From Gemmatimonadaceae bacterium (lineage in GTDB: Bacteria > Gemmatimonadota > Gemmatimonadetes > Gemmatimonadales > Gemmatimonadaceae): a stretch of DNA of 64,000 nucleotides. Positions 37,373 to 48,922 of this stretch are shown here, in pieces. Position 1 is the first letter of the stretch, and every line of letters begins with the position of its first letter. The notes below the pieces were generated by a model that worked only from the letters and a program-made list of their open reading frames with translations, had not been told where the DNA came from and ran no database searches. The DNA lies in contig JBBJNV010000026.1 in the NCBI GenBank assembly GCA_037721215.1, positions 1 to 64,000 of the forward strand, read 5' to 3'. A program made the position numbers and the translations under genes.

Positions 37373-38395
37373 TCAGTGTCGCTCTTTCTTCACGCCTCCA
37401 GAGTTCTCCGCACGATCCGAAACCCCTTCCACCATGGCCTGGTCCGCCTCGGGCCGCGCCTCTCCCCAGATGAGCAGCAGACCCATGATACCATAAATCG
37501 GGAGATGCCCGACGAGCTCTGACCAACCGAGCAAGGGGAGCGTGAGATTGAACGGCAGCCACAGCGCCAGAATAATCAGGCGAACAAAAACGCCGGACAT
37601 GAGCAGCAGCCCAAACGTCAGCTCCACTACCCCCGCAATGAACAGGAACTCCGGATCGCCAATCGCCGACAACCCTAACGCGGGAAAAAAGTTGAACGGG
37701 TGCTCGGCGAGAAACGCGAGCCCCATCGCGGGGTTCCACAGCTTTTCTGTGAATGCGACCACAACGATGCTCAGCCCCGTGAGAACGCGGAGGACCGTGA
37801 CCGCGTGAGGCATGAGTCGCTCCACCGGCTTGTGTAGCCGCTCAAGCGACATGTCGAACGCCAGCGGACCACGGCCCGCGGCGAAAAGGAAAAAAGCTAT
37901 GCCGAGGAACAGCGAGTGCTCGAGCAGGCGCACCGGGCCGAAGAAAATTGCGCCGGCCAGCCAGACTCCGGCGAGCGCAACCGCGCCGAACCGGGTGAGC
38001 GCACCATATATGAAGCTCAGCGCAATGGCAATCTCGGCCAGACCCAGGATGGCACCGAGAAAGTTTGCGGGCAACTCAAGGTTGGGGACGAAAAGCCGCA
38101 GACCGATTCCGCTTACGAGCAGCGTTACGGCGGTATGAACGCCGATCACGAGCGGCATCCATGAAAGCAGGTCCTGATAGTTCTGCCATTTCATGCCGAG
38201 CTCGATAGGCCCTGGGACCAGGGGCCGCCGGCCCCGCGCGCGCCACACTACAACCGCGAGTGCCGTGATGCCAACGGCGACGGCGAGCGGAAGCCACGTC
38301 CTTGGCGTTAACGCAAGGTCGTATTGAACCGGAAACCTGGACTCCTCAGTAAACCAGCGCTCATGCAGGAGCATCAGCGCTACGGGTCCGCTCAC
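37373..38395 (-). CDS. DoxX-type multi-pass membrane protein
   Basis: This 340-residue protein has about eight TM helices. The C-terminal half shows a DoxX-like pattern (LRVLTGLSIVVVAFTEKLWNP, then LFIAGVVELTFGLLLMSGVFVRL). DoxX/DoxD proteins include quinone-reducing thiosulfate oxidoreductase subunits and poorly understood redox membrane proteins. The start overlaps the LVIVD-protein stop by 4 bp, and the coupled run extends back to the hydrogenase genes, so it is the last gene of that operon. A link to the quinone pool for hydrogenase electrons is plausible; no direct evidence is visible. Confidence 0.82.
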   Translation of the reverse strand: MSGPVALMLLHERWFTEESRFPVQYDLALTPRTWLPLAVAVGITALAVVVWRARGRRPLVPGPIELGMKWQNYQDLLSWMPLVIGVHTAVTLLVSGIGLRLFVPNLELPANFLGAILGLAEIAIALSFIYGALTRFGAVALAGVWLAGAIFFGPVRLLEHSLFLGIAFFLFAAGRGPLAFDMSLERLHKPVERLMPHAVTVLRVLTGLSIVVVAFTEKLWNPAMGLAFLAEHPFNFFPALGLSAIGDPEFLFIAGVVELTFGLLLMSGVFVRLIILALWLPFNLTLPLLGWSELVGHLPIYGIMGLLLIWGEARPEADQAMVEGVSDRAENSGGVKKERH

Positions 38396-40437
38396 CTCGT
38401 GTTACGAAGCGCGATGATGTTCTCTCGCCGCGCGGCTGGCCGCGTCACAACCCACGGTGCCTCGAGCACGTACAGGCCGGAGTTTACGTCGCTGAGCACG
38501 ACGTATTCCTGCGCGCCAGCTCTACGGTTCCCGCCTCGCTGAGGCAATATCGCAACGCTGACGACGTACGCCTTGGCCGGCAGTACACCCGTCGGATCGG
38601 CCACATCAGGCGGCACGAACGATCCAACTTCGCGGACGCCCCCCGATGAAAGATCGATCACTCGCGCGCCATCCGAGTTCCACGGCACCACCGCGATGTT
38701 CCCTCTCACTGCAGCGCGCTGCGGTGAGAAAACACTGAGGTCGCTCGGCGGAAAAATGCGCGAGCGCGGGGTTCGGTGCACGCCGACCTCCCGCGGCGAC
38801 GCGGGATCCGTAACGTCGACCACGCGTAACGCGCCCCATTCTCCGGGAGAATCCCGCATCGTCGCTGTCACGCGTGCGCCGGCAACGCAACGTCCTTTCA
38901 CCACCGACGGACAAAGCGCTGAGCGCAGCGCGTCACCGTCTTTCTTGTCGATCATCATCACCGGAATCGCGATCCCGTCGGGATCGCCGTCAGGTGAGAA
39001 TGCCTCGGGTGCCGTTGTGCTCGTCTGAAGCATTACCACGGCGCGTGCGCCCGCCGCCTGAGCAAGGCGCACGCGGTCGGCTACGGAACATCCGGCGGTA
39101 TTTGCCGGGGCTGGCTGGGTGGGTTGGCGGCCGCGGTCAACGACAGCGATCCTGCCCCGCGTGTTCGACAGATACGAACCGGTATCCATGGACATCGATT
39201 TCGTCTTTGCCGCCGATGCCACGCCGTGTTGCATGGCACCCATGTCGGCGTGCATATCCGCAGCGCCAGCGGGACAGCCCATGCCAATGTACGCGAGCTC
39301 GCCGCTCACACCGCCTGGCTGCCGGTAAAGTTGCGCCTTGTTCTGAGGATCATAGAGCGTGAACACCGCCTCGCATCCGAACTTCGATCCCGCAACGGCT
39401 GCCGGTCCTTCTACGACCAGTGTCGTGGTTGGCGCAATGAAATCCGCCTCGGAAATCAGCGCCAGATCACGGCCGTTGACGCGAGCTGCCGCAACGTATG
39501 CCGCGCTCCCTTCGAACTGGCGGTCGGTGGGATACTTGAACTGCCCCAGCTTCGCGGGCTTGCCTGAACGAGGCAAATCGACGACAAAGAGTCCGCCGTC
39601 ATAGAACGCAAGCATGCCCCGCGTTCCGTCATGCGAGAACCCTGCTCCATGGCCGGCGCTGAAGGGACGGCATCCATTGGTGGAAAAAATCGGCATGCCT
39701 GGCGGGGGGAAAGCGCCAACCTGCACCGGCCAGCGGGGATTCGTGACATCAACGACGCGCAGGTCTCCCGACGCAAATTTGCCCGCCGACGCTCCCGGCT
39801 CGAGCGACAATGAGAAGACGCGCCCGTCCGCGCGTTGAACGAGTGAAACGGAATGCTGCGACGATGCGCAACGAGCGGAGCTCTTTGCCGGCGGCAGCCC
39901 ACACGGCGGGATGCTGTCCGCGTGGACGATGTCGGCGTCGGCCTGATAGCGGCCCAGAAAAACGGGTACGGCTGGCGTGGTGACATCGTAATACGCGACG
40001 CCGCGCTCGACTGTGCTGCCACCCGCACCACAGGTCTGCAACGCGACAGCAGCGAGATCTCCAGTGAACGCCGCCGTGCGAACGCGAGCAGCAGCCACAC
40101 CGTGCGCAGCTACACCGGCCGGCACCGGTATGGTCGCAACCACCACCGGTGTTTGCGGCCGCGAAAGATCAACGATCTTGATCGTTACAGCTTTGCACGG
40201 ATAAGGGTTATACAGATGCGCGTGAACTCCGGCGGCGGGCATCAACCCCGCGCCGACGATACCAGTTGTGCCGACTATCGCGATGTCGCCGTTAAGTCCG
40301 CCGCCGCCGAGGTTGCTCTGGCCCACCAGGCGCATTGTCTGAGCGCCGAGCATCATTGGACAGGCCAGCATGATCGAGAAAGCGATGTGCGCGTATTGCC
40401 GCACATGATTCACTCGGCCAGAATGCGATGTTCTCAT
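38392..40437 (-). CDS. Secreted LVIVD-repeat propeller with PA-like domain
   Basis: The protein has 681 residues with a signal peptide (IAFSIMLACPMMLGA). Repeats of the LVIVD type follow (IKIVDLSRPQTPVVVATI, LRVVDVTNPRWPVQVGAF, LRVVDVTDPASPREVGVH), indicating a beta-propeller. A protease-associated-type segment is inserted near residues 420-500 (RGRIAVVDRG, AAGARAVVMLQTS, IPVMMIDKKDGDAL). The loop before it is Met/His-rich (DMHADMGAMQHG). It overlaps the CooC-like gene upstream and the DoxX gene downstream by ATGA, so it belongs to the hydrogenase operon. Its job is unknown; an extracytoplasmic scaffold is possible. Confidence 0.8.
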   Translation of the reverse strand: MRTSHSGRVNHVRQYAHIAFSIMLACPMMLGAQTMRLVGQSNLGGGGLNGDIAIVGTTGIVGAGLMPAAGVHAHLYNPYPCKAVTIKIVDLSRPQTPVVVATIPVPAGVAAHGVAAARVRTAAFTGDLAAVALQTCGAGGSTVERGVAYYDVTTPAVPVFLGRYQADADIVHADSIPPCGLPPAKSSARCASSQHSVSLVQRADGRVFSLSLEPGASAGKFASGDLRVVDVTNPRWPVQVGAFPPPGMPIFSTNGCRPFSAGHGAGFSHDGTRGMLAFYDGGLFVVDLPRSGKPAKLGQFKYPTDRQFEGSAAYVAAARVNGRDLALISEADFIAPTTTLVVEGPAAVAGSKFGCEAVFTLYDPQNKAQLYRQPGGVSGELAYIGMGCPAGAADMHADMGAMQHGVASAAKTKSMSMDTGSYLSNTRGRIAVVDRGRQPTQPAPANTAGCSVADRVRLAQAAGARAVVMLQTSTTAPEAFSPDGDPDGIAIPVMMIDKKDGDALRSALCPSVVKGRCVAGARVTATMRDSPGEWGALRVVDVTDPASPREVGVHRTPRSRIFPPSDLSVFSPQRAAVRGNIAVVPWNSDGARVIDLSSGGVREVGSFVPPDVADPTGVLPAKAYVVSVAILPQRGGNRRAGAQEYVVLSDVNSGLYVLEAPWVVTRPAARRENIIALRNTR

Positions 40438-41219
40438 GGAGGTATCGGTGCGCTAAGCGTCGCGGCAAGCTGCTCGATTGCCTTGACCGCCGGCGCGTCC
40501 GGATTGTAATCGACTGGCGTTTTACCAGCGCGCTCGGCCTCCAGCAGCGATGGATCATACGGGATCTCGCCAGCCAGCTTCAGCGAATGCGCCTTGCAGA
40601 ACTCGGCAATTGCTTTCCGGTCACCATCGTCCCGCACCTTGTTGGCAACCGCAAGCACTTCGCCGATACCGAGTTCCGCCGCGAGTGCCGCAACCCGTTT
40701 CGCGACCTCCATCGATCGGTAATACGGTTCGATCGTGGCGACAAAACGCGACAGGCTCCTTCCGGTTCCCCGGGACAGATGCTCGAGTCCCGCTTCCATG
40801 TCGACGATGATATCCCGATCATCGTCGTCTTTTCTCACCAGCTCACCAATCAAGCCGCGGACCGCGGCGTGGGCGCTGCACAGTCAACCAGCGCCGCCAT
40901 GGTTCACCTTACCCATCACCAGCAGACGGATGCCGTCGGGCCCCGGCGCGGAGTAATTGGAGATGATGTCGTCGGAATTCGCGGTGAAAACCGTTTTTGT
41001 AGTACCGTCCTCCTGCTGCTGACGCTCCATCATGTTGCGCGGGAGGTCCATCATCTCCTGCGCCTTTTCCGGAGGAACACCAAGCGTGACGGCGAGGTTT
41101 GGCGTAGTATCGGCATCAATTGCCAGCACCTGCCTCCCCTGCCGCGCGAGAACCCGGGCAAGAGTGCCCGAGATTGTCGTCTTTCCAGTCCCGCCTTTTC
41201 CCGCAATCGCTACTCGCAT
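40434..41219 (-). CDS. CooC-like nickel-insertion ATPase with in-frame TGA (candidate Sec)
   Basis: Read through one TGA at 40886-40884, the frame encodes 261 residues. The P-loop is GKGGTGKTT at residues 7-15, followed by LAIDADTTPNLAVTLG, RLLVMGKVNHGGAG, then [TGA]-L-C, then SAHAAVRGLI, DIIVDMEAGLEHLSRGT and VANKVRDD. CooC family members, as I recall them, read GG-[SA]-G-C-x-C at this point, with both Cys binding Ni or Zn at the dimer interface; residue 112 is TGA and Cys114 is kept. No other stop or frameshift occurs on either side. ATG at 41219 overlaps the upstream stop (TGATG), and the end overlaps the LVIVD gene (ATGA). A SECIS-like hairpin follows the TGA. A TGC-to-TGA nonsense mutation or sequencing error is the alternative. 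Confidence 0.75.
40854..40886 (-). promoter_or_regulatory. SECIS-like hairpin after in-frame TGA
   Basis: In minus-strand RNA, 15 nt after the UGA, GCCGC and GCGGC pair around the loop GGUCC; an alternative fold is a 6-bp stem with loop GUC. The loop begins 20 nt after the UGA. The E. coli fdhF SECIS, as I recall it, has loop GGUCU about 18 nt after its UGA, and SelB recognises G and U there. CAGC (before) and GCUG (after) could extend the stem. Confidence 0.55.
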
Positions 41220-41602
41220 CAGTGTTTGTGCCCTCCGGCAGCGCGGACCGCGTGACATTCGGCCGCGCCCGCTGGGTTGTCGTGACAGTCGCAGCCGGGA
41301 TCGCTGCATTCGCCGTGCCCCTGAGACAGCAGCTCGGAAAACTCATCCTTGAACCGGCGCGATGCTTCGCGGCGTCCGACTTCGGTCAACCTGTACTCGG
41401 CGATGCTTCCGCCAAGCTCGACCACGTAATTGCGTTCCATCAGATCGGTCAGCGTCGCGCGCACAAGTGCCTCTGGATGCGCAAGAAACCGCGTCATGCC
41501 AACCAGGTTTGCGCTCGCCTGCAAGCCTTCGCCTTCGAACCAGAACAGCAGCTCGAGCATTTCATCGCGCCGCGCGATCTCCAGCCCCGCGTCATCACTC
41601 AT
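41219..41602 (-). CDS. Small winged-helix-like protein with Cys/His tail
   Basis: The protein has about 127 residues. The N-terminal 90 residues (RRDEMLELLFWFEGEG, ALVRATLTDLMERNYVVEL, YRLTEVGRREASRRFK) look like a winged-helix DNA-binding domain. The C-terminal tail is Cys/His-rich (HGECSDPGCDCHDNP, ECHAV, GGHKH), a likely metal site. ATG at 41602 overlaps the maturation-protease stop by 8 bp, and its own stop overlaps the CooC-like start (TGATG). It may be a regulator or a nickel carrier of the hydrogenase system. The family name is unknown to me. Confidence 0.75.
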   Translation of the reverse strand: MSDDAGLEIARRDEMLELLFWFEGEGLQASANLVGMTRFLAHPEALVRATLTDLMERNYVVELGGSIAEYRLTEVGRREASRRFKDEFSELLSQGHGECSDPGCDCHDNPAGAAECHAVRAAGGHKH

Positions 41603-42110
41603 GAACTCCAATCTCCTCTTCCGCGGTCGCCGAAAAAACTTTCTCACTCGCCAACAGATGATGGATGCGGCGCACGGCAACGTCAACCGCGGCCCGCACC
41701 GGAGGCGTGAGCTCGCCGGTAAGGTCGCAGGTCATCTCATCGACTTGCATCGGTTCACACCCCACGAGAATCACCCTCGGCGGCAGTACGTTGAGCGCCT
41801 GCGCCACCGAGAGAGCGTGGGACGGAATCGCGACATGCATATCCACCCGCTGGACCTGCTCCACACCGTCGACTTCAAGCACATACACCGTGCCAGGCTC
41901 GCCGCCGCGCGTCATCGCGTCCGCAATAATCAGCAGGTCGCACGGCGTGAGCAGGTCCTGCGCTAGACGTATCCCGGCAGTGCCGACCTCCATCAGGTCA
42001 ACACCCGGCCCGGCAACTCCTTCGTCCCCGAGCCGGCGCACTACTTCGACACCAAAGCCATCGTCACCGCGGAGAGTGTTGCCGAAACCAGCTATCAAAG
42101 TCCGCGGCAT
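41595..42110 (-). CDS. Hydrogenase maturation endopeptidase (peptidase A31)
   Basis: This 171-residue enzyme removes the C-terminal tail of the large subunit after nickel insertion. GFGNTLRGDDGFGVEV near the N-terminus is the HyaD/HybD/HoxW signature, with an acidic metal ligand. LLIIADAMTRGGEPGTVYVLE and a conserved His (PSHALSVAQAL) supply the other ligands. ATG at 42110 overlaps the Rieske-fusion stop (TGATG); upstream residues of the open frame are not family-like. Its presumed substrate is the 21-residue tail of the large subunit at 43572-45470. Confidence 0.9.
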   Translation of the reverse strand: MPRTLIAGFGNTLRGDDGFGVEVVRRLGDEGVAGPGVDLMEVGTAGIRLAQDLLTPCDLLIIADAMTRGGEPGTVYVLEVDGVEQVQRVDMHVAIPSHALSVAQALNVLPPRVILVGCEPMQVDEMTCDLTGELTPPVRAAVDVAVRRIHHLLASEKVFSATAEEEIGVHE

Positions 42111-43006
42111 CAGGAGGTCCCGGTTCGCGGTACTGGCTCGACACCCACGGCGACCTCGACATTCCCCGCTTCGACTCTCACCGGATAAACGCGGATTCTG
42201 TCCCCGCCAGATGAATCTGCCCGCGCCCCGGAGCGCACATCGTACCGGCAACCATGCCAGCTGCAGACGAGAACCGCATCGTCGAGCGAACTGTATGCCA
42301 GCGGCAGCGGACTGTCTCCGCAGTTGGCCGCAAGTGCATAGTATTCGCCGCCAACGTTGGCGATCAGAATTGATTCAGCACCGGCTTCGATTGCCCGCGT
42401 TTCGCCGGGCTCGAGATCCGTGGCGGGGAACGCGGAGTGGTAAACCGGCCGGTTGGCTCGGCGCAGCCCGCCCAGTTTCACAAGCTCCGCGGCTTTCGGC
42501 GCACGCTGCCGCTCGCCAATGACGAGAATCTGAAAACCGATCAGCCCCTCTCTGAGAGCCGACTCGATATCGCGTCGAACCGCGTCGACGGAAAGCCCGC
42601 TCTTCTCTACTCCGTGCAGCTTCACGAAGACTTCGCTGCCCCCCACATCCAGCAGCTCGACGTCGACTCCGTGAGAATGCAGGTGGCCGCGCACGGCATC
42701 GAGCGCTTCCTCGGTGTTGATTCGCCGATCCACCGCCAGCAGATCGTACGACATGAAGAGCAGCCGTATCGCCGGGTCCGCGGTCAGGCGGTCCATGAAC
42801 TGCTCCCCCCCCATTCCCACGATCGCGCTGAAAAGGTGCGTGAGCGCTGTTCTGTGCACAGCGTCGATGCCTTCCAGCAGCGCCGTCACCTGCGCCCGCA
42901 CGTCAGGGTCAGCGTGACCCTCGAGCGCCGCGATAATATCCGCGATATAATCGAGAAGATCGTCGTGCGGCTGGACGACGTCGGGCTCGCTGCCTGTCCC
43001 CGTCAT
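42110..43006 (-). CDS. NifU-like/Rieske fusion protein with altered cluster motifs
   Basis: The protein has 298 residues. Residues 1-100 are helical. About 100-170 resemble the NifU C-terminal domain (DVELLDVGGSEVFVKLHG), but its CxxC is replaced by VEKSG. About 203-290 form a Rieske-type domain with the second motif C248-S-W-H251-G-C253 intact, while the first C-x-H reads C229-G-D. The canonical 2Cys-2His ligand set is therefore incomplete and the cluster type is uncertain. Similar NifU/Rieske genes occur with high-affinity hydrogenases of group 1h, as I recall. It overlaps both neighbours, and a role in cluster assembly or electron transfer for the hydrogenase is likely. Confidence 0.83.
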   Translation of the reverse strand: MTGTGSEPDVVQPHDDLLDYIADIIAALEGHADPDVRAQVTALLEGIDAVHRTALTHLFSAIVGMGGEQFMDRLTADPAIRLLFMSYDLLAVDRRINTEEALDAVRGHLHSHGVDVELLDVGGSEVFVKLHGVEKSGLSVDAVRRDIESALREGLIGFQILVIGERQRAPKAAELVKLGGLRRANRPVYHSAFPATDLEPGETRAIEAGAESILIANVGGEYYALAANCGDSPLPLAYSSLDDAVLVCSWHGCRYDVRSGARADSSGGDRIRVYPVRVEAGNVEVAVGVEPVPRTGTS

Positions 43007-43560
43007 CCGAATCTGAATGCCGGCACGGCTGTCAATACAAGGGATCCCATAGGTAATTGGGCGGAGGCCCCGTCGTCAGTAGCGAGGGACCATACGAGAT
43101 CGCAGATATCGTCGAACGCCGCTGCCACTTCACCGCTCAGGGCCGCGCCGAACTCGTGAGTCTCCGGCTCCACCTCCACCACGACGACATCGTCCGGCAA
43201 CGCCTTGAAGTAGCGCGCGATCACTAGCGTATTCTCGAGCGCGATTATTCCGGTCACGGCATCGGTGACCATGCGCTGAATCTCTTCGTCAGCGGGCAGT
43301 CTGCCGTCCCATCGATAAGCGCGGACAGTGCCGGCCGGCCGATCTCCCCGTTTGACTGCAGAGACGACTACGATCCGGTCGAAGCGGGTTTCAGGTTGCT
43401 CGTCCTGCAGCCGCTGAATAATCGCGATCGGGTTGTAGCTCAGATCCTCGACTACGACATTCGCCGGAGCGTCACGCCCGGACAGCCGCTCCTGAACCTC
43501 GATCCCGATCGAGTAATCACACAGATCGGGATAGGCGACACCCCCCACCAGAACCCGCAC
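43003..43560 (-). CDS. A31 protease-like hydrogenase accessory protein
   Basis: This 185-residue protein has the overall pattern of hydrogenase maturation endopeptidases: RVLVGGVAYPDLCDYSIG near the N-terminus, VVVEDLSYNPIAIIQRL and IVVVSAVKRGDRPAGTVRAY. The glycine motif GxGNxLxxDDG is replaced by GGVAYPDLCDYSIG, so it may be a non-catalytic paralogue or have another cleavage role. A regular A31 protease lies two genes downstream. It begins 11 bp after the large-subunit gene and overlaps the NifU/Rieske gene by ATGA. Confidence 0.75.
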   Translation of the reverse strand: MRVLVGGVAYPDLCDYSIGIEVQERLSGRDAPANVVVEDLSYNPIAIIQRLQDEQPETRFDRIVVVSAVKRGDRPAGTVRAYRWDGRLPADEEIQRMVTDAVTGIIALENTLVIARYFKALPDDVVVVEVEPETHEFGAALSGEVAAAFDDICDLVWSLATDDGASAQLPMGSLVLTAVPAFRFG

Positions 43561-43571
43561 CGCCTACGAGC

Positions 43572-45470
43572 TCAGTCGTCGAGGCCGCAGGCGCAGGTGT
43601 TCACTTCACGCGTAATGAGGCCGCCCTCCGACTGAATGTGGGTCGTGCACGGCATGCACGGATCGAAGCTGCGAATTGCACGGAGCACGTCCAGCCCGCG
43701 GAACTTCGCCGGATCATTGGACTCCTCCAGCAACGGCGTGTTCAGCACCGCTTCTTCGTACGGACCCGGCTGTCCCCAGCGGTCAGTTGGCGATGCATTC
43801 CAGGTCGACGGCGTGACGATCTGGTAGTTGGACACTGCGCCGCGATCAAGCGTCAGATGGTGGGTCAGATAACCCCGGCCCGCTCCCCAGAATCCAACCC
43901 CCTGCTGAGTTCCGCGCTTGGGGATCTCGAACTTCGTGCTCGTCTTCGTGTCACCATCCTTGAGCCTTTCCATGGCACCCCGCCATTGCTCGAACGCAAT
44001 GAGCGTCGTGAACGCCATGCAGTAGGCGCGCGCACGATTCCGCTCAAACGCGTTCCACACCTCGGGCACGTGCCACTCGAGCTCGGTCTCTGGCAGTGCT
44101 CCCGCCGGCATCCGCATCTTCAGCGAGTGCCCGGTGGATTCCATGAAGGGACTGTCGGGCATCTTCTGGGCGACGGCGGAATTCCAGAGCCGTGCGTACG
44201 CGCCACCTTCCATTGCCTGCCGATCCCACCGTGGCGTTGTATCCCAGGTGTACTTCTCCTTCCAGTTTTGTCCCTGCGGACGCGGACGCGTGACCTTGTT
44301 CCACGGATGGTATGGCGACAGGGGGTTGCCGCTGGGATCAGTCGGGAAATGCTGCTGCTGTCCCTCGCCGGTCCAGTCCTCGTAATAGGAATGCTCGACG
44401 AATTCCTCGAGGCCGATGTTGATCGTCTTCAGATCGGTGGTGACGAGCTTGCCATCGACGATCGCACCCGGAGTCGCCCACCGGCGGTTCCCCCACTCAT
44501 TGCAGTTTTCGTACGTGGCGTCATACGCATCAGGATGATCGAAGATACCAGTGTCGATCATGTTCGCCCGGCGCGCGCCAACTTTCTTGTACTCTGGATT
44601 GGCCTCATAAAAAAAGGTCGTGATGTCATCCCAGATGAGCGCGAGCTTCTTGGAGTAATCGAAGAACTGCGACAGGCGGACGAACATCTCGTTCATCACC
44701 GTCAGGTTGATCGTCGAGCTCATGCCTCCCGGCACGATGGTCTGAGGATGCGGATACTTGCCGCAGATCAGCACATATGCCTCGCGCGCGACGCGCGTCA
44801 TGTGGAGCGCCTCGAGGTAGAGTTTACCCGTGAGCGGATTCAGATCAGTCATCAGATCGGCAATCGTCCTGTAGCCATGGATCGCCGTGTGATGAGCCTC
44901 GGTCGTGGTGGCGCGGGCGTAGAGTGACGGGTTGGTGGGCTCGACGATCACCTGCGAATAATCCGGGCCCGCCAGAAGATGCAGGTGAAGCGGATGGTCG
45001 TACAGAAACTCGAGCGCCAGCGCGAGGTTGCGGATGAGAACGCCAAGCGGGGGCGGGCAGCATCCGATCGCCATCTCGATGGCAAGCGCGGAACACGTTG
45101 AGTGGACGCCGCCGCAAACGCCGCAGGCCCGGCTCGTTATGTAGATGGCGTCGCGCGGATCCCGGCCAATCATGATGACTTCATAGCCGCGAAAAAGCGT
45201 TGCGACAGAACGCGCCTCGATGATCTTCCGGTTCTCGAAATCGGCGACGGTATGGAACGCAAGCGCACCGGCAACGCGCGTGACTGGGTCAAAATCCACA
45301 TTCTTTATGTGGCCGTTCCGCTTGAGCAGGTCCTCGATCTTGTCCGAGGTCAGCTGTCTCGGTCCCTCTGGCGGCGTCGCGGTCGCCGTAGCATATGGAT
45401 CGCCCACCCCATTCCGCAGGAACGGCTTGCCGCTGGCGTCGAACTCTACCGGTAGATTTTTAAAGCACAT
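43572..45470 (-). CDS. [NiFe]-hydrogenase large subunit (group 1h/1l-like)
   Basis: This 632-residue catalytic subunit oxidises H2 at the NiFe(CN)2CO site. The L1 motif RACGVCGGVH has C116, C119 and H123; the L2 motif DPCMPCTTH has C605, C608 and H611. A C-terminal tail of 21 residues after His611 (ending NTCACGLDD) is the expected A31 cleavage product. FLYDHPLHLHLLAGPDYS and the accessory set recall group 1h (or the recently proposed 1l) enzymes that oxidise atmospheric H2, but the subgroup needs a tree. All four nickel ligands are Cys, so it is not a NiFeSe enzyme. It lies 46 bp after the fifth small membrane gene. Confidence 0.95.
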   Translation of the reverse strand: MCFKNLPVEFDASGKPFLRNGVGDPYATATATPPEGPRQLTSDKIEDLLKRNGHIKNVDFDPVTRVAGALAFHTVADFENRKIIEARSVATLFRGYEVIMIGRDPRDAIYITSRACGVCGGVHSTCSALAIEMAIGCCPPPLGVLIRNLALALEFLYDHPLHLHLLAGPDYSQVIVEPTNPSLYARATTTEAHHTAIHGYRTIADLMTDLNPLTGKLYLEALHMTRVAREAYVLICGKYPHPQTIVPGGMSSTINLTVMNEMFVRLSQFFDYSKKLALIWDDITTFFYEANPEYKKVGARRANMIDTGIFDHPDAYDATYENCNEWGNRRWATPGAIVDGKLVTTDLKTINIGLEEFVEHSYYEDWTGEGQQQHFPTDPSGNPLSPYHPWNKVTRPRPQGQNWKEKYTWDTTPRWDRQAMEGGAYARLWNSAVAQKMPDSPFMESTGHSLKMRMPAGALPETELEWHVPEVWNAFERNRARAYCMAFTTLIAFEQWRGAMERLKDGDTKTSTKFEIPKRGTQQGVGFWGAGRGYLTHHLTLDRGAVSNYQIVTPSTWNASPTDRWGQPGPYEEAVLNTPLLEESNDPAKFRGLDVLRAIRSFDPCMPCTTHIQSEGGLITREVNTCACGLDD

Positions 45471-45516: not shown

Positions 45517-45780
45517 CTAAGTAAGCCTGAAAACGGTTGCCGCGCGGCCGAGATGCCCGTCGGCGACGCGCAACCCGCCAAGCAGCGCAACGAGGGCTCC
45601 GTTGATCGTCGTCAGCTTCTCGGGCAGAGGCGCCGTGTGACCGGCCACGGCTTCGAGGCCGTCGGCAATCGCGGCGACGCTCTTTTTCGCGGAGAGCAGA
45701 GCCCACGCAATCGCAATGAGAAAACCCGCGAGCGCGATAACGACGAGCGCTACAGTAATCAGGGTAAGTGTCAGCAGCAT
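45517..45780 (-). CDS. Small single-TM protein E of hydrogenase operon
   Basis: This 87-residue protein has an N-terminal TM helix (about residues 3-30, LTLITVALVVIALAGFLIAI) and an amphipathic helical tail with TAPLPEKLTTINGALVALL. The tail resembles that of protein C (46096-46416; TGGLAPEVIKLNGGLTAV), so the two form one paralogous pair. It is the last of five consecutive small membrane genes between the two hydrogenase subunit genes and lies 10 bp after gene D. Membrane anchoring or oligomerisation of the hydrogenase is suggested. Confidence 0.8.
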   Translation of the reverse strand: MLLTLTLITVALVVIALAGFLIAIAWALLSAKKSVAAIADGLEAVAGHTAPLPEKLTTINGALVALLGGLRVADGHLGRAATVFRLT

Positions 45781-45790
45781 TATTGTATCC

Positions 45791-46099
45791 TCACCCGGCT
45801 CTCTGCTCGAGAACGTTGGCGACGGTGTCGAGTTTTCCCGCTACGTTCCCGGCGGTTCCGAGAATCTGTGTGGCTACTTCAATTGTTGCATCCAGGGCGA
45901 CGATATTTGCCGTATTTCCGGCGATACCACCCGCCGCCGTCAACGCTTCTGCCGCGAAGTGCTGGATAGACCTCGCCGCACGCCATGTGCGATGCAGATA
46001 ATAAACGGCCAGCGGAACGAACAGACCGAGTGTAAGAATGAGTCCCGTCCACCAGATGGCGAACACGGCGTCAGGAAACATCTCCGCGGATGTCGTCAT
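45791..46099 (-). CDS. Small single-TM protein D of hydrogenase operon
   Basis: This 102-residue protein has one TM helix at about residues 12-34 (FAIWWTGLILTLGLFVPLAV), then a helical tail NTANIVALDATIEVATQIL that matches the pattern in proteins A and B (I..NT..I.AL..T..VA..IL). ATG at 46099 overlaps the stop of gene C by 4 bp; the open frame runs further upstream only as antisense-like Arg-rich sequence. It is probably cytosol-facing and in contact with the hydrogenase. Confidence 0.8.
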   Translation of the reverse strand: MTTSAEMFPDAVFAIWWTGLILTLGLFVPLAVYYLHRTWRAARSIQHFAAEALTAAGGIAGNTANIVALDATIEVATQILGTAGNVAGKLDTVANVLEQRAG

Positions 46100-46416
46100 T
46101 TCGCCCCCTGCGCCGACACCGCTGTGATCACTCCACCCAGATTCCTGTCGATCGCGCCCATGCCGTCGCGGACCGCCGTGAGCCCCCCGTTCAGCTTGAT
46201 CACTTCCGGAGCGAGACCGCCCGTCTGGACCTCGATCGCTCGCACACCGAGCCGAATCTTCGATAGAAAGCTGGCAGGATTTCCGTAACCGGCCTTCTTG
46301 CTGCCGCCAATCTTTTCGAGCTCGGTTGTAATAGAGCTGAGAAACAAAACAAGCGCGATGAAAAGCGCGGCAGCCGCAACAAGCGAGATCAGGGCAAGCA
46401 GCGTCATCGTATTCAT
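46096..46416 (-). CDS. Small single-TM protein C of hydrogenase operon
   Basis: This 106-residue protein has a TM helix at about 4-28 (TLLALISLVAAAALFIALVL), then a helical tail with TGGLAPEVIKLNGGLTAV and IDRNLGGVI. The tail is related to protein E but not to A, B and D. ATG at 46416 overlaps the stop of gene B by ATGA, and its own stop overlaps gene D. Confidence 0.8.
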   Translation of the reverse strand: MNTMTLLALISLVAAAALFIALVLFLSSITTELEKIGGSKKAGYGNPASFLSKIRLGVRAIEVQTGGLAPEVIKLNGGLTAVRDGMGAIDRNLGGVITAVSAQGAK

Positions 46417-46745
46417 CGGAGCCACTCCGGTCCAATCACACACGTGGGACACATCGAGCATTCCTCGGCATGCGAGTGCACGCCCGCCGTGGCATTCACC
46501 ACCCCGACCGCCGACCCGAGAATCTTCCCCGCGACGAGATTGGTTCGCTTGAGCAGCGCGATGTGGATGGTGTTGTTGGCGATGCGCTGCCCCACGTTCC
46601 AGATCGCGGACACTCCGCCGGTGATGTCGCGGGCGGTGCGCAGTATCAGCGTGAGCAGGATCGCTACGACAACGAGAACCGCGACGAAAACGCCAAGCGT
46701 TATCATCCAGATCGTCTGAACTGTTTCCGGGGTTATCTCAGACAC
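46413..46745 (-). CDS. Small single-TM protein B of hydrogenase operon
   Basis: This 110-residue protein has a TM helix at about 9-35 (IWMITLGVFVAVLVVVAILL) and a tail NNTIHIALLKRTNLVAGKIL of the A/B/D type. Unlike the other four, the C-terminus carries His and Cys residues (HSHAEECSMCPTC), a possible metal site. GTG at 46745 is preferred because it overlaps the stop of gene A by 8 bp and gives a short N-terminus; the frame is open to 46799. Confidence 0.78.
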   Translation of the reverse strand: MSEITPETVQTIWMITLGVFVAVLVVVAILLTLILRTARDITGGVSAIWNVGQRIANNTIHIALLKRTNLVAGKILGSAVGVVNATAGVHSHAEECSMCPTCVIGPEWLR

Positions 46746-47049
46746 GGGAAGGCCCTCCACTCGCTCCCGCATGACTCTCCAGGGCCGCCACCAGCGCACC
46801 GCCCTTTGCCTCTATGCTTTGTACTGTTTCGAGAAGCTGACCCGCCACCTCGTTAGTCGTCTCGAGTGCCCAGATCGGCATCGTGCTCTCGCGAATTTTC
46901 TCCGCCGCCGCCAGCGCCCGCCGCGCGTGAGCAAGAATGCTGCGCGCGGTGAGCCAGATTGTTATCAGCAACACTGCGGCAATCAGAATCACCACCACCG
47001 CCAGCGCCATCCAGAGTCCCCACGATCTCCACAGCTCAGTGTCTGTCAC
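46738..47049 (-). CDS. Small single-TM protein A of hydrogenase operon
   Basis: This 103-residue protein has a TM helix at about 11-34 (LWMALAVVVILIAAVLLITI), then a helical, partly coiled-coil tail (RRALAAAEKIRESTMPIWAL, TTNEVAGQLLETVQSI) of the A/B/D type. Its ATG lies 14 bp inside the small-subunit gene, so translation is probably coupled. It is the first of the five-gene array. Confidence 0.8.
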   Translation of the reverse strand: MTDTELWRSWGLWMALAVVVILIAAVLLITIWLTARSILAHARRALAAAEKIRESTMPIWALETTNEVAGQLLETVQSIEAKGGALVAALESHAGASGGPSRV

Positions 47050-48340
47050 GGGTGTCCTCTATCGTGGAGTTGTCATCCAGATAATCGCTCTTCGAACCCG
47101 GTCGGTCACCGCCCCAGAATCTATCTTCGGTACCCCTGGGACGGCCCGGCGCCTTCGCCCCCCAGAACTGCCATTTCTTGTAGAAGAACTCCATAAGCTT
47201 GAGTGACGGAGTGGCGGTATTCACGTTTGCCCACCCGCTCGGCACTGCATTGAGCTTGTCCCAGCGCACTTCTGAGTTCGCGTGCCGGTTGCTCAGCCGC
47301 CGCGCGCGCCGGATCACCGCCCCCACCCCACGCGACATCGTCGTCGAGATAAGTCCGCCCGGGGGCTCCTTATAGAATGGCGAAAACTTGTCGGGGAACC
47401 CCGGCATCGTGCAGGCAATGCAGACCCCGCCGGCCTCCATGCACCCTCCCATGTGGTTCAACGCGCCGCGCTTCACGATGTTGCAGTTGACCACCGGCCC
47501 CCAGCATCCGAGCTCGATAAGGCACTCGGGGTCGCCATAGTTCTTGGCGAACACTCCTTCCTCATAGTACCCGGCGCGCGTGCAGCCGCGGTGAACACTC
47601 TCGGTGAACAGCCACGATGGACGGCCAAGCTCGTCAAAGGAAGGAAGCGGTCCGAGGCCCTGCAGAAAAAGCAGTACGGCAAAAACCGTCTCGGTGAAGT
47701 TGTCGCCCTGTGGCGCGCAACCCGGGATGTTGATCACCGGGAGGCCGAAAGCGCTTCTGTAGTCCTTACCGAGAAAGTCCATCAGGCTCATCGAGCCGGT
47801 GGGATTCCCGACCGCGGAGGGGATACCTCCCCACGTGGCGCATGTGCCGATCGCTATGGTGGCAGCCGCGCCGGGAGCGAGACGGGAGATCCACGTTGCC
47901 GTGGGAACCGGTCCATGGCCATCGGTTCCTTCAATTGCCTGGCTACCCATCGCCGAGAAATAACCCCCGGTGCGCGCAGCGATGCGCTCGTCCGCGATCG
48001 AGCCTTCAGCTACGATGACATACGGATCCTCGAGCTTCCCTTCCCACGCATCCAGCATCGGCTGGATGAACGCCTCGCCGTGCTCGACCGAAAGCACCGT
48101 GTGGTGAAGCAGGACCTGAGGCATCGTGGGCACCGTGCCGAGCAGCAGCCCCTCGATGCCCGGGTTCGTGGCTCCGGCGACGGCCACGGTGCATCCGTCG
48201 CAGCTCATTCCGGCTATCCAGAAAACGTGCACAGTCTTGATTGGGCCGAGCGGCAACCGTTCGGGCCGGGGATGAGGGAGCGTCGCCGGAATAGGTGGCT
48301 GCGTGGTCTTGATTGTATCCTGTTCAACCGCTGTCGCCAT
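47036..48340 (-). CDS. [NiFe]-hydrogenase small subunit
   Basis: This 434-residue Fe-S electron-transfer subunit starts at the ATG at 48340, which has AAGGAG 7 nt upstream. Proximal-cluster region: WIAGMSCDGCTVAVAGATNP (C47 and C50 in this numbering), IGTCATWGG and IPGCAPQGDN. Medial/distal region: HRGCTRAGYYEEG, CLIELGCWGP, GGCMEAGGVCIACTMPGFPD. No Tat (RRxFxK) signal and no C-terminal TM helix are present, so the enzyme faces the cytoplasm and needs another membrane anchor, probably the five small TM proteins encoded next. It is the first gene of the long leftward hydrogenase operon. Confidence 0.94.
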   Translation of the reverse strand: MATAVEQDTIKTTQPPIPATLPHPRPERLPLGPIKTVHVFWIAGMSCDGCTVAVAGATNPGIEGLLLGTVPTMPQVLLHHTVLSVEHGEAFIQPMLDAWEGKLEDPYVIVAEGSIADERIAARTGGYFSAMGSQAIEGTDGHGPVPTATWISRLAPGAAATIAIGTCATWGGIPSAVGNPTGSMSLMDFLGKDYRSAFGLPVINIPGCAPQGDNFTETVFAVLLFLQGLGPLPSFDELGRPSWLFTESVHRGCTRAGYYEEGVFAKNYGDPECLIELGCWGPVVNCNIVKRGALNHMGGCMEAGGVCIACTMPGFPDKFSPFYKEPPGGLISTTMSRGVGAVIRRARRLSNRHANSEVRWDKLNAVPSGWANVNTATPSLKLMEFFYKKWQFWGAKAPGRPRGTEDRFWGGDRPGSKSDYLDDNSTIEDTRDRH

Positions 48341-48652
48341 GACGTGCTCCTTTCGCAATCCGGGAAGTATACGCCGCCGCCTGCCGCCCGGATCTCGGTT
48401 GGGCAGCCGACGCGGACGCCGTTTAGCTGTTTACAAGGGTTACAAAACAAATACCTTCAATTCACATGCCGTTGACGGCCGCACACACGTCCCGCACACA
48501 ATGCAGGTTGCGCGTTCCGATACAGCGTATATATCACTTAGTCGACAACGGTGAAAGGACGAACTGGCCTGAACCGGTGAAACGACCAGTCGCTCGAACC
48601 CGCAGCGGCTTGTTCGGCTGCGGCCGTTTTCCACTCCAGAAGGGAGGCAAAA
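48341..48652. promoter_or_regulatory. Divergent control region, hydrogenase operon / hypC
   Basis: This 312-bp gap lies between the leftward hydrogenase operon and rightward hypC. On the plus strand, TTGCGC and TATATA near 48510-48535 could form a weak promoter. CGCAGC (48601-48606) and GCTGCG (48617-48622) form a 6-bp stem followed shortly by TTTT, a possible leader hairpin before hypC. I see no clear FNR, NikR or sigma-54 site. Confidence 0.45.
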
Positions 48653-48922
48653 GTGTGTCTAGCGATTCCTGGACAGATCGTCGACTTCGTCGACGGCCAT
48701 CCGCATCTGGCGGTCATCGAAGTGTCGGGCGTTCGTCGCAAGGTGAACATCGACCTGTTGCGCGAGGATGGTCTCACGCTGTCGGACTGGGTTCTGATTC
48801 ACGTCGGGTTCGCCATGAGCAAGATCAGCCCCGAGCATGCGCAGGAGCAGATCAGCCTGCTGACCATGCTCGGTGAAGAGGGTGAAGCGGTCCGCGAGCT
48901 CGAAGGCTATCAATTTGGCTAG
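48653..48922 (+). CDS. hypC: Hydrogenase assembly chaperone HypC/HybG
   Basis: This 89-residue protein begins MCLAIPGQI, the HypC signature with Cys2 that binds the Fe(CN)2CO precursor together with HypD and passes it to the large subunit. VIEVSGVRRKVNIDLL and DWVLIHVGFAMSKIS are family-typical. It starts with GTG at 48653 after a strong AGGGAGG ribosome site. It is transcribed away from the hydrogenase operon and leads into the ABC importer genes. The other maturation genes (hypA, B, D, E, F) are not in the window. Confidence 0.95.
   Translation: MCLAIPGQIVDFVDGHPHLAVIEVSGVRRKVNIDLLREDGLTLSDWVLIHVGFAMSKISPEHAQEQISLLTMLGEEGEAVRELEGYQFG

Follow-up and report, generated by a model that had tools for sequence, protein, structure and literature searches.

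A CooC-like ATPase gene with a predicted selenocysteine codon in a [NiFe]-hydrogenase operon of Gemmatimonadota

A gene for a CooC-like P-loop ATPase, located in a [NiFe]-hydrogenase operon of Gemmatimonadota, carries an in-frame TGA at the position of the first cysteine of its CxC metal motif and is otherwise intact. We interpret the TGA as a selenocysteine (Sec) codon and the predicted product as a nickel-delivery factor for the hydrogenase, and we give this combined reading a probability of roughly 0.72, with metal binding and function being inferred. Taken by itself, the claim that UGA codon 112 is translated as Sec is one that we hold with high confidence, on genomic grounds and without protein-level evidence. 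We think it only somewhat better than an even bet that the Sec-containing protein (Sec-CooC) and its upstream neighbor stand in for HypA and HypB, an inference drawn from the presence and absence of genes.

The gene and its protein family

The window, by which we mean the whole stretch of 64,000 nucleotides that was analyzed, is part of a 3.5 Mb draft genome (G000), whose closest named relatives are Gemmatimonadaceae MAGs. On its reverse strand, positions 41219 to 40434 form an open reading frame of 262 codons. Its translation gives a predicted Sec-containing CooC-like P-loop ATPase of 261 residues, in which the only internal stop is the TGA of codon 112 (40886–40884), within the sequence ...NHGGAG-[TGA]-LCSAHAAVRGLIGE.... 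A sequence-only reading of this DNA had proposed that an in-frame TGA replaces the first Cys of the CxC motif and that both flanking halves are intact and in the same frame; it had the position right, and the TGA is the sole interruption. It had also proposed stop/start coupling to both neighbors, which we find as a TGATG overlap between the start of the gene and the stop of the upstream gene, and an ATGA overlap (40437–40434) between its stop and the start of the downstream gene.

Pfam searches match the protein to CbiA/ParA-type families, and it has no match to the HypB family TIGR00073. Its best solved relative is CooC-1 of Carboxydothermus hydrogenoformans (3kje; E 5.4e-42), the CxC of which aligns residue for residue with U112-x-C114, so that, as judged from this alignment, codon 112 is the position of the Cys112 ligand of CooC-1. 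An AlphaFold model has a mean pLDDT of 76, with residues 106–113 falling under 50, and a search with the predicted fold matched MinD-type ATPases and CooC1, with CooC ranking second. The hallmarks of a CooC-type protein (a MinD-like fold, a deviant Walker A motif, and CxC) are therefore all met, with U in place of the first C. In CooC-1, Cys112 and Cys114 coordinate Zn at the contact of two monomers, a site for which Ni competes and which ATP is believed to open more widely so that nickel is set free (PMC6006190), in agreement with the earlier suggestion that CxC is a Ni/Zn ligand at the CooC dimer interface. For the protein described here, Ni/Zn binding at a dimer interface is inferred from the 3kje alignment and from that review, and there are no binding data. 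Since the CooC of Rhodospirillum does not bind nickel tightly (PMC6006190), nickel as the metal is not certain.

Orthologues were found in a small minority of the genomes scanned (395 from the whole phylum and 288 from the order). Eight species-level Gemmatimonadota genomes (G000, G012, G266, G228, G272, G453, G410, and G352), spanning three families and with identities to the window protein down to about 51%, have TGA at the identical codon, whereas three have Cys (TGC in G187 and G122, TGT in G141). The G352 gene is split over two contig ends, the overlapping parts of which are identical. A genome-contig scan returned two near relatives, both of which matched genomes found otherwise, and a tblastn search of plasmids gave only one distant CooC homologue.

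The hydrogenase operon and its maturation genes

The genes around the CooC-like gene are those of a hydrogenase operon, and all coordinates that follow are on the reverse strand unless stated otherwise. Downstream, with its start overlapping the CooC-like stop, lies a gene for an LVIVD-repeat/PA-domain protein (38392–40437; Pfam), which only the nearest relatives share (G266, G012, and G141, the last in part). In most loci, the gene directly upstream encodes a small protein (41219–41602) that we infer to be winged-helix-like and that ends in a Cys/His tail, GHGxCxDPxCDCH, invariant in the alignment of its orthologues. It belongs to no Pfam family, nor is it HypA by family search. We view it as a candidate metal-binding partner of the CooC-like ATPase, possibly in HypA's place, with its function being inferred. 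As an observation in its own right, this protein is a candidate for a new metallochaperone or a metal-sensing regulator of the operon.

Further upstream are genes for a HyaD/HycI-type hydrogenase maturation protease (41595–42110; PF01750, 1.4e-18; TIGR00072, 5.3e-34), a NifU-like/Rieske [2Fe-2S] protein (42110–43006; PF00355, PF01106), and a second, diverged maturation-protease-like protein (43003–43560; TIGR00072, 2.9e-13). They are followed by the [NiFe]-hydrogenase large subunit (HhyL-like, 43572–45470; PF00374, 2.4e-79), four small membrane-type proteins that are mutually similar by cross-matching of their ORFs (45517–47049), and the small subunit (HhyS-like, 47036–48358; PF14720, PF01058; NF045520, 1.1e-52). 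The four membrane-type genes thus stand between the two subunit genes, an order that is kept in relatives. HypC is encoded on the forward strand (48650–48877; E 4.1e-7 to E. coli HypC within a concatenated query). The closest solved relative of the large subunit is HofG of R. eutropha (5aa5; E 8.5e-161, with the next best at 9e-56), an actinobacterial-type hydrogenase that we take to belong to group 1h. By this similarity, and without a subgroup phylogeny, the hydrogenase of the operon is predicted to be of group 1h type (Hhy/AH). Gene order is largely conserved in relatives as far as the contigs reach, differing in G352 and G122, and in every locus the CooC-like gene is linked to hydrogenase or hydrogenase maturation genes.

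We searched the eleven genomes for the known nickel-handling systems. No CooS-type Ni-CODH was found in any of the 11; on this ground we reject a role in CODH maturation, and the protein is accordingly a CooC homologue, but not a CODH-maturation CooC. HypB occurs in only two genomes (G122 and G453) and is absent from the other nine, including G000. HypA was likewise found in G122 and G453 only, by single-sequence comparison across the 11 genomes, so that a strongly diverged HypA could have been missed. The genomes are drafts (74–97% complete), and it is unlikely that nine joint absences of HypA and HypB arose by chance. HypF is present in all 11, fragmentary in places, and most also have HypD and HypE; G272 has only a piece of HypF, whilst G000 has HypC in the window and, on a different contig, a group of HypD, HypE, and HypF. 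The lack of HypA and HypB in a genome that has HypCDEF suggests replacement rather than an additional factor. The replacement is not strict, since G453 has Sec-CooC and also carries HypA and HypB, adjacent to each other on another contig, which is short and showed no second hydrogenase. G122, which is a Cys-CooC genome that retains the Sec machinery, has a second [NiFe]-hydrogenase cluster (L103, C341) beside its HypA and HypB.

The presence of HypCDEF with HypB missing and HypA undetected, the lack of a Ni-CODH as an alternative client, and the constant linkage to hydrogenase or maturation genes also bear on the best of the rival explanations, which accepts Sec as real but holds that the protein is a redox ATPase, or an ATPase for another metal (Zn, Cu, or Fe), that merely sits in the operon. 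All three speak against it, as does the fact that the nearest solved relative, CooC, is a nickel protein. Nevertheless, many selenoproteins are redox enzymes (PMC13188914), UxC could serve as a redox motif, and metal specificity cannot be read from a sequence, the more so as the CooC site binds Zn too (PMC6006190). We consider this explanation unlikely, though serious enough to be kept in mind, and we continue to prefer nickel delivery to the hydrogenase.

Decoding of the in-frame TGA

A bacterial selenoprotein gene is expected to have UGA where homologues have Cys and a SECIS hairpin directly after it. The first expectation is met by the eight TGA and three TGC/TGT orthologues. The alignment that had been suggested as a check of the sequence-only reading shows TGA or Cys at this codon in all orthologues, and a disruption elsewhere in none of them. 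A tree of the CooC-like genes requires three changes between Sec and Cys. Both halves of the gene are under purifying selection: dN is 0.03–0.45 before the TGA and 0.11–0.50 after it, with dS ranging from about 0.8 to saturation (for G000 and G228, dN 0.31 vs. dS 2.95 downstream of the TGA).

TGA is a normal stop in G000; it terminates the CooC-like gene itself and 10 of the 11 cluster genes checked. The genetic code has therefore not simply been reassigned, and we reject reassignment of TGA as an explanation. The same fact leaves room for the possibility that the TGA of codon 112 is a true stop, which would split the gene, or truncate it in a regulated manner, into two separate polypeptides, and a TTG start does lie downstream, at 40853. 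Such a stop would, however, have to coincide in eight species with the very codon of a metal-ligand Cys, always as TGA and with Cys elsewhere. It would also sever the conserved metal loop at codon 112, and it would leave unaccounted for the covarying hairpin and the Sec machinery that accompany the TGA (see below). We regard a true stop as very improbable. The genomes are draft assemblies, but a sequencing error or a recent pseudogene can be rejected with near certainty, given that eight species-level genomes from three families share the codon and that purifying selection is strong on both sides of it. Translation of the codon as Sec is thus the reading that we retain.

The second expectation is met by pairing and covariation. 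A SECIS-like hairpin, GCCGC-GGUCC-GCGGC, is located at 40868–40854 on the reverse strand. Its stem begins 15 nt after the UGA and its loop, GGUCC, at 20 nt, the distance that the sequence-only reading had given for the hairpin. All five pairs form in each of the eight TGA genes (100% paired); pair 22–30 is A-U or G-C, pair 21–31 is C-G or U-A, and the GU in the loop is invariant among the TGA genes. By comparison, the three Cys orthologues keep 2–4 of the five pairs (53% of cells paired), and the hairpin is broken in each. When synonymous codons were redrawn, all five pairs arose by chance with a probability of 0.003–0.14 per TGA gene, values that are not independent between related genes. Folding energy alone is not significant for the hairpin in the window (z = -0.22), and an Rfam scan of the window gave no matches. 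Support for the hairpin therefore comes from the comparison between species (pairing, compensatory changes, and breakage in Cys genes), and not from folding energy.

The machinery for Sec insertion is present in the source genome, where a search for selA, selB, selC, and selD, proposed earlier as a check, found all four: a tRNA-Sec with anticodon TCA (70.5 bits), SelB (341 bits against a cut-off of 242), SelA (527 bits), and a SelD gene that adjoins the tRNA-Sec. SelD (L049; ORF ending 11531, C32) is itself a predicted selenoprotein, with a TGA of its own at the catalytic position (RCAG-U-ASK); five other genomes also have this TGA, and G036 and G019 have Cys instead. All eight TGA genomes have a tRNA-Sec, and all six of those searched for selA and selB have both (G453 and G410 were left out of that search). 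G410 has two equal-scoring tRNA-Sec matches (C24:20672-20765 and C311:3068-3161), perhaps an assembly duplicate. Among the Cys genomes, selA, selB, and selC were all not found in G141 and G187, and all three are present in G122. An assembly gap as the reason for the lack of Sec machinery in G141 and G187 was considered and rejected, as their genus-mates G070, G041, and G057 have no tRNA-Sec either (3/3). With 11 genomes, the association between the state of the codon and the Sec machinery has a Fisher p of 0.055; it supports the Sec reading without deciding the matter alone.

Related genes occur in the same clusters. A tandem CooC paralogue in G228 (L061/L084, C325:16610-17332) carries a TGA in place of the second motif Cys (SGCG-TGA-CG, that is, CxU), followed by a hairpin of its own, CCUGAGC-AGUU-GCUCGGG, the folding energy of which is uninformative by itself (z -0.12). 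The second motif Cys therefore seems to be Sec in this paralogue, which was found in a single genome. A third CooC-like paralogue, in G228 (L062) and G410 (L095:16-522), keeps the P-loop and has no CxC.

Proposed role and relation to known systems

We propose that UGA codon 112 would be decoded as Sec by SelB and tRNA-Sec, aided by the downstream hairpin, giving a full-length CooC-type (MinD/SIMIBI) ATPase. By homology to CooC, the protein may dimerize and form one metal site at the interface from two U112/C114 pairs, and nickel binding in Se/S form at these residues is likewise an inference. Binding and hydrolysis of ATP would then open the Se2S2 site, so that Ni(II) passes to the large subunit of the neighboring hydrogenase, into which HypCDEF would have inserted Fe(CN)2CO beforehand; the protease encoded in the operon would complete maturation last. 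The Cys/His-tailed neighbor is envisaged as the metal-handling partner, such that the pair replaces HypA and HypB. That an aerobic [NiFe]-hydrogenase, probably of high affinity, thereby receives its nickel independently of HypA and HypB, through a CooC-type ATPase with an encoded Se/S nickel site and a new Cys/His-tailed partner, is in our estimation slightly favored over its not being so.

If true, selenium would be placed where a nickel ATPase transfers its metal and not in a catalytic center, which raises the question of what Sec gives a metallochaperone, for example tighter binding of soft metals or resistance to oxidation in air. It would also mean that an unrelated module has taken over nickel insertion in [NiFe]-hydrogenase maturation while HypCDEF was kept, in hosts that are soil Gemmatimonadota thought to oxidize atmospheric hydrogen. 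Sec at a metal site is already known. We did not find Sec in CooC described, nor a hydrogenase operon that seems to manage without HypA and HypB. The sequence-only reading knew of no Sec-containing CooC, and there is indeed none among the 119 prokaryotic selenoprotein families in Table 1 of a 2026 review, where a CobW-related protein comes closest (PMC13188914). The other selenoprotein papers that we examined do not mention CooC; preprints and most subscription papers were outside the search, and novelty is therefore provisional.

Of the known systems, CooC-1 (PDB 3kje-3kji), the maturation ATPase of Ni-CODH, is the closest. Homology extends over nearly the full length, and the two proteins share the deviant Walker A motif GKGGxGKTT and a CxC metal motif at residue numbers 112 and 114. 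They differ in that the first ligand is here encoded by TGA (predicted Sec), and in that the gene lies in a [NiFe]-hydrogenase operon, in genomes without a CooS-type CODH. The CobW-related family comprises metal-handling P-loop NTPases. It too contains a predicted selenoprotein (NF041053; PMC13188914), but it is another NTPase family, with UxxC and not UxC, and its entry in that review has no link to hydrogenase. With the HypB/HypA pair, the proposed role is shared, namely delivery of nickel to the large subunit, driven by NTP and assisted by a small metal-binding partner, whereas the proteins themselves are not recognizable as HypB or HypA. Lastly, [NiFeSe]-hydrogenases also have Sec in a hydrogenase system, where it is a nickel ligand in the enzyme itself; in the operon described here, it is a maturation factor that carries the predicted Sec, and the C-terminal metal motif of the large subunit ORF contains an ordinary Cys.
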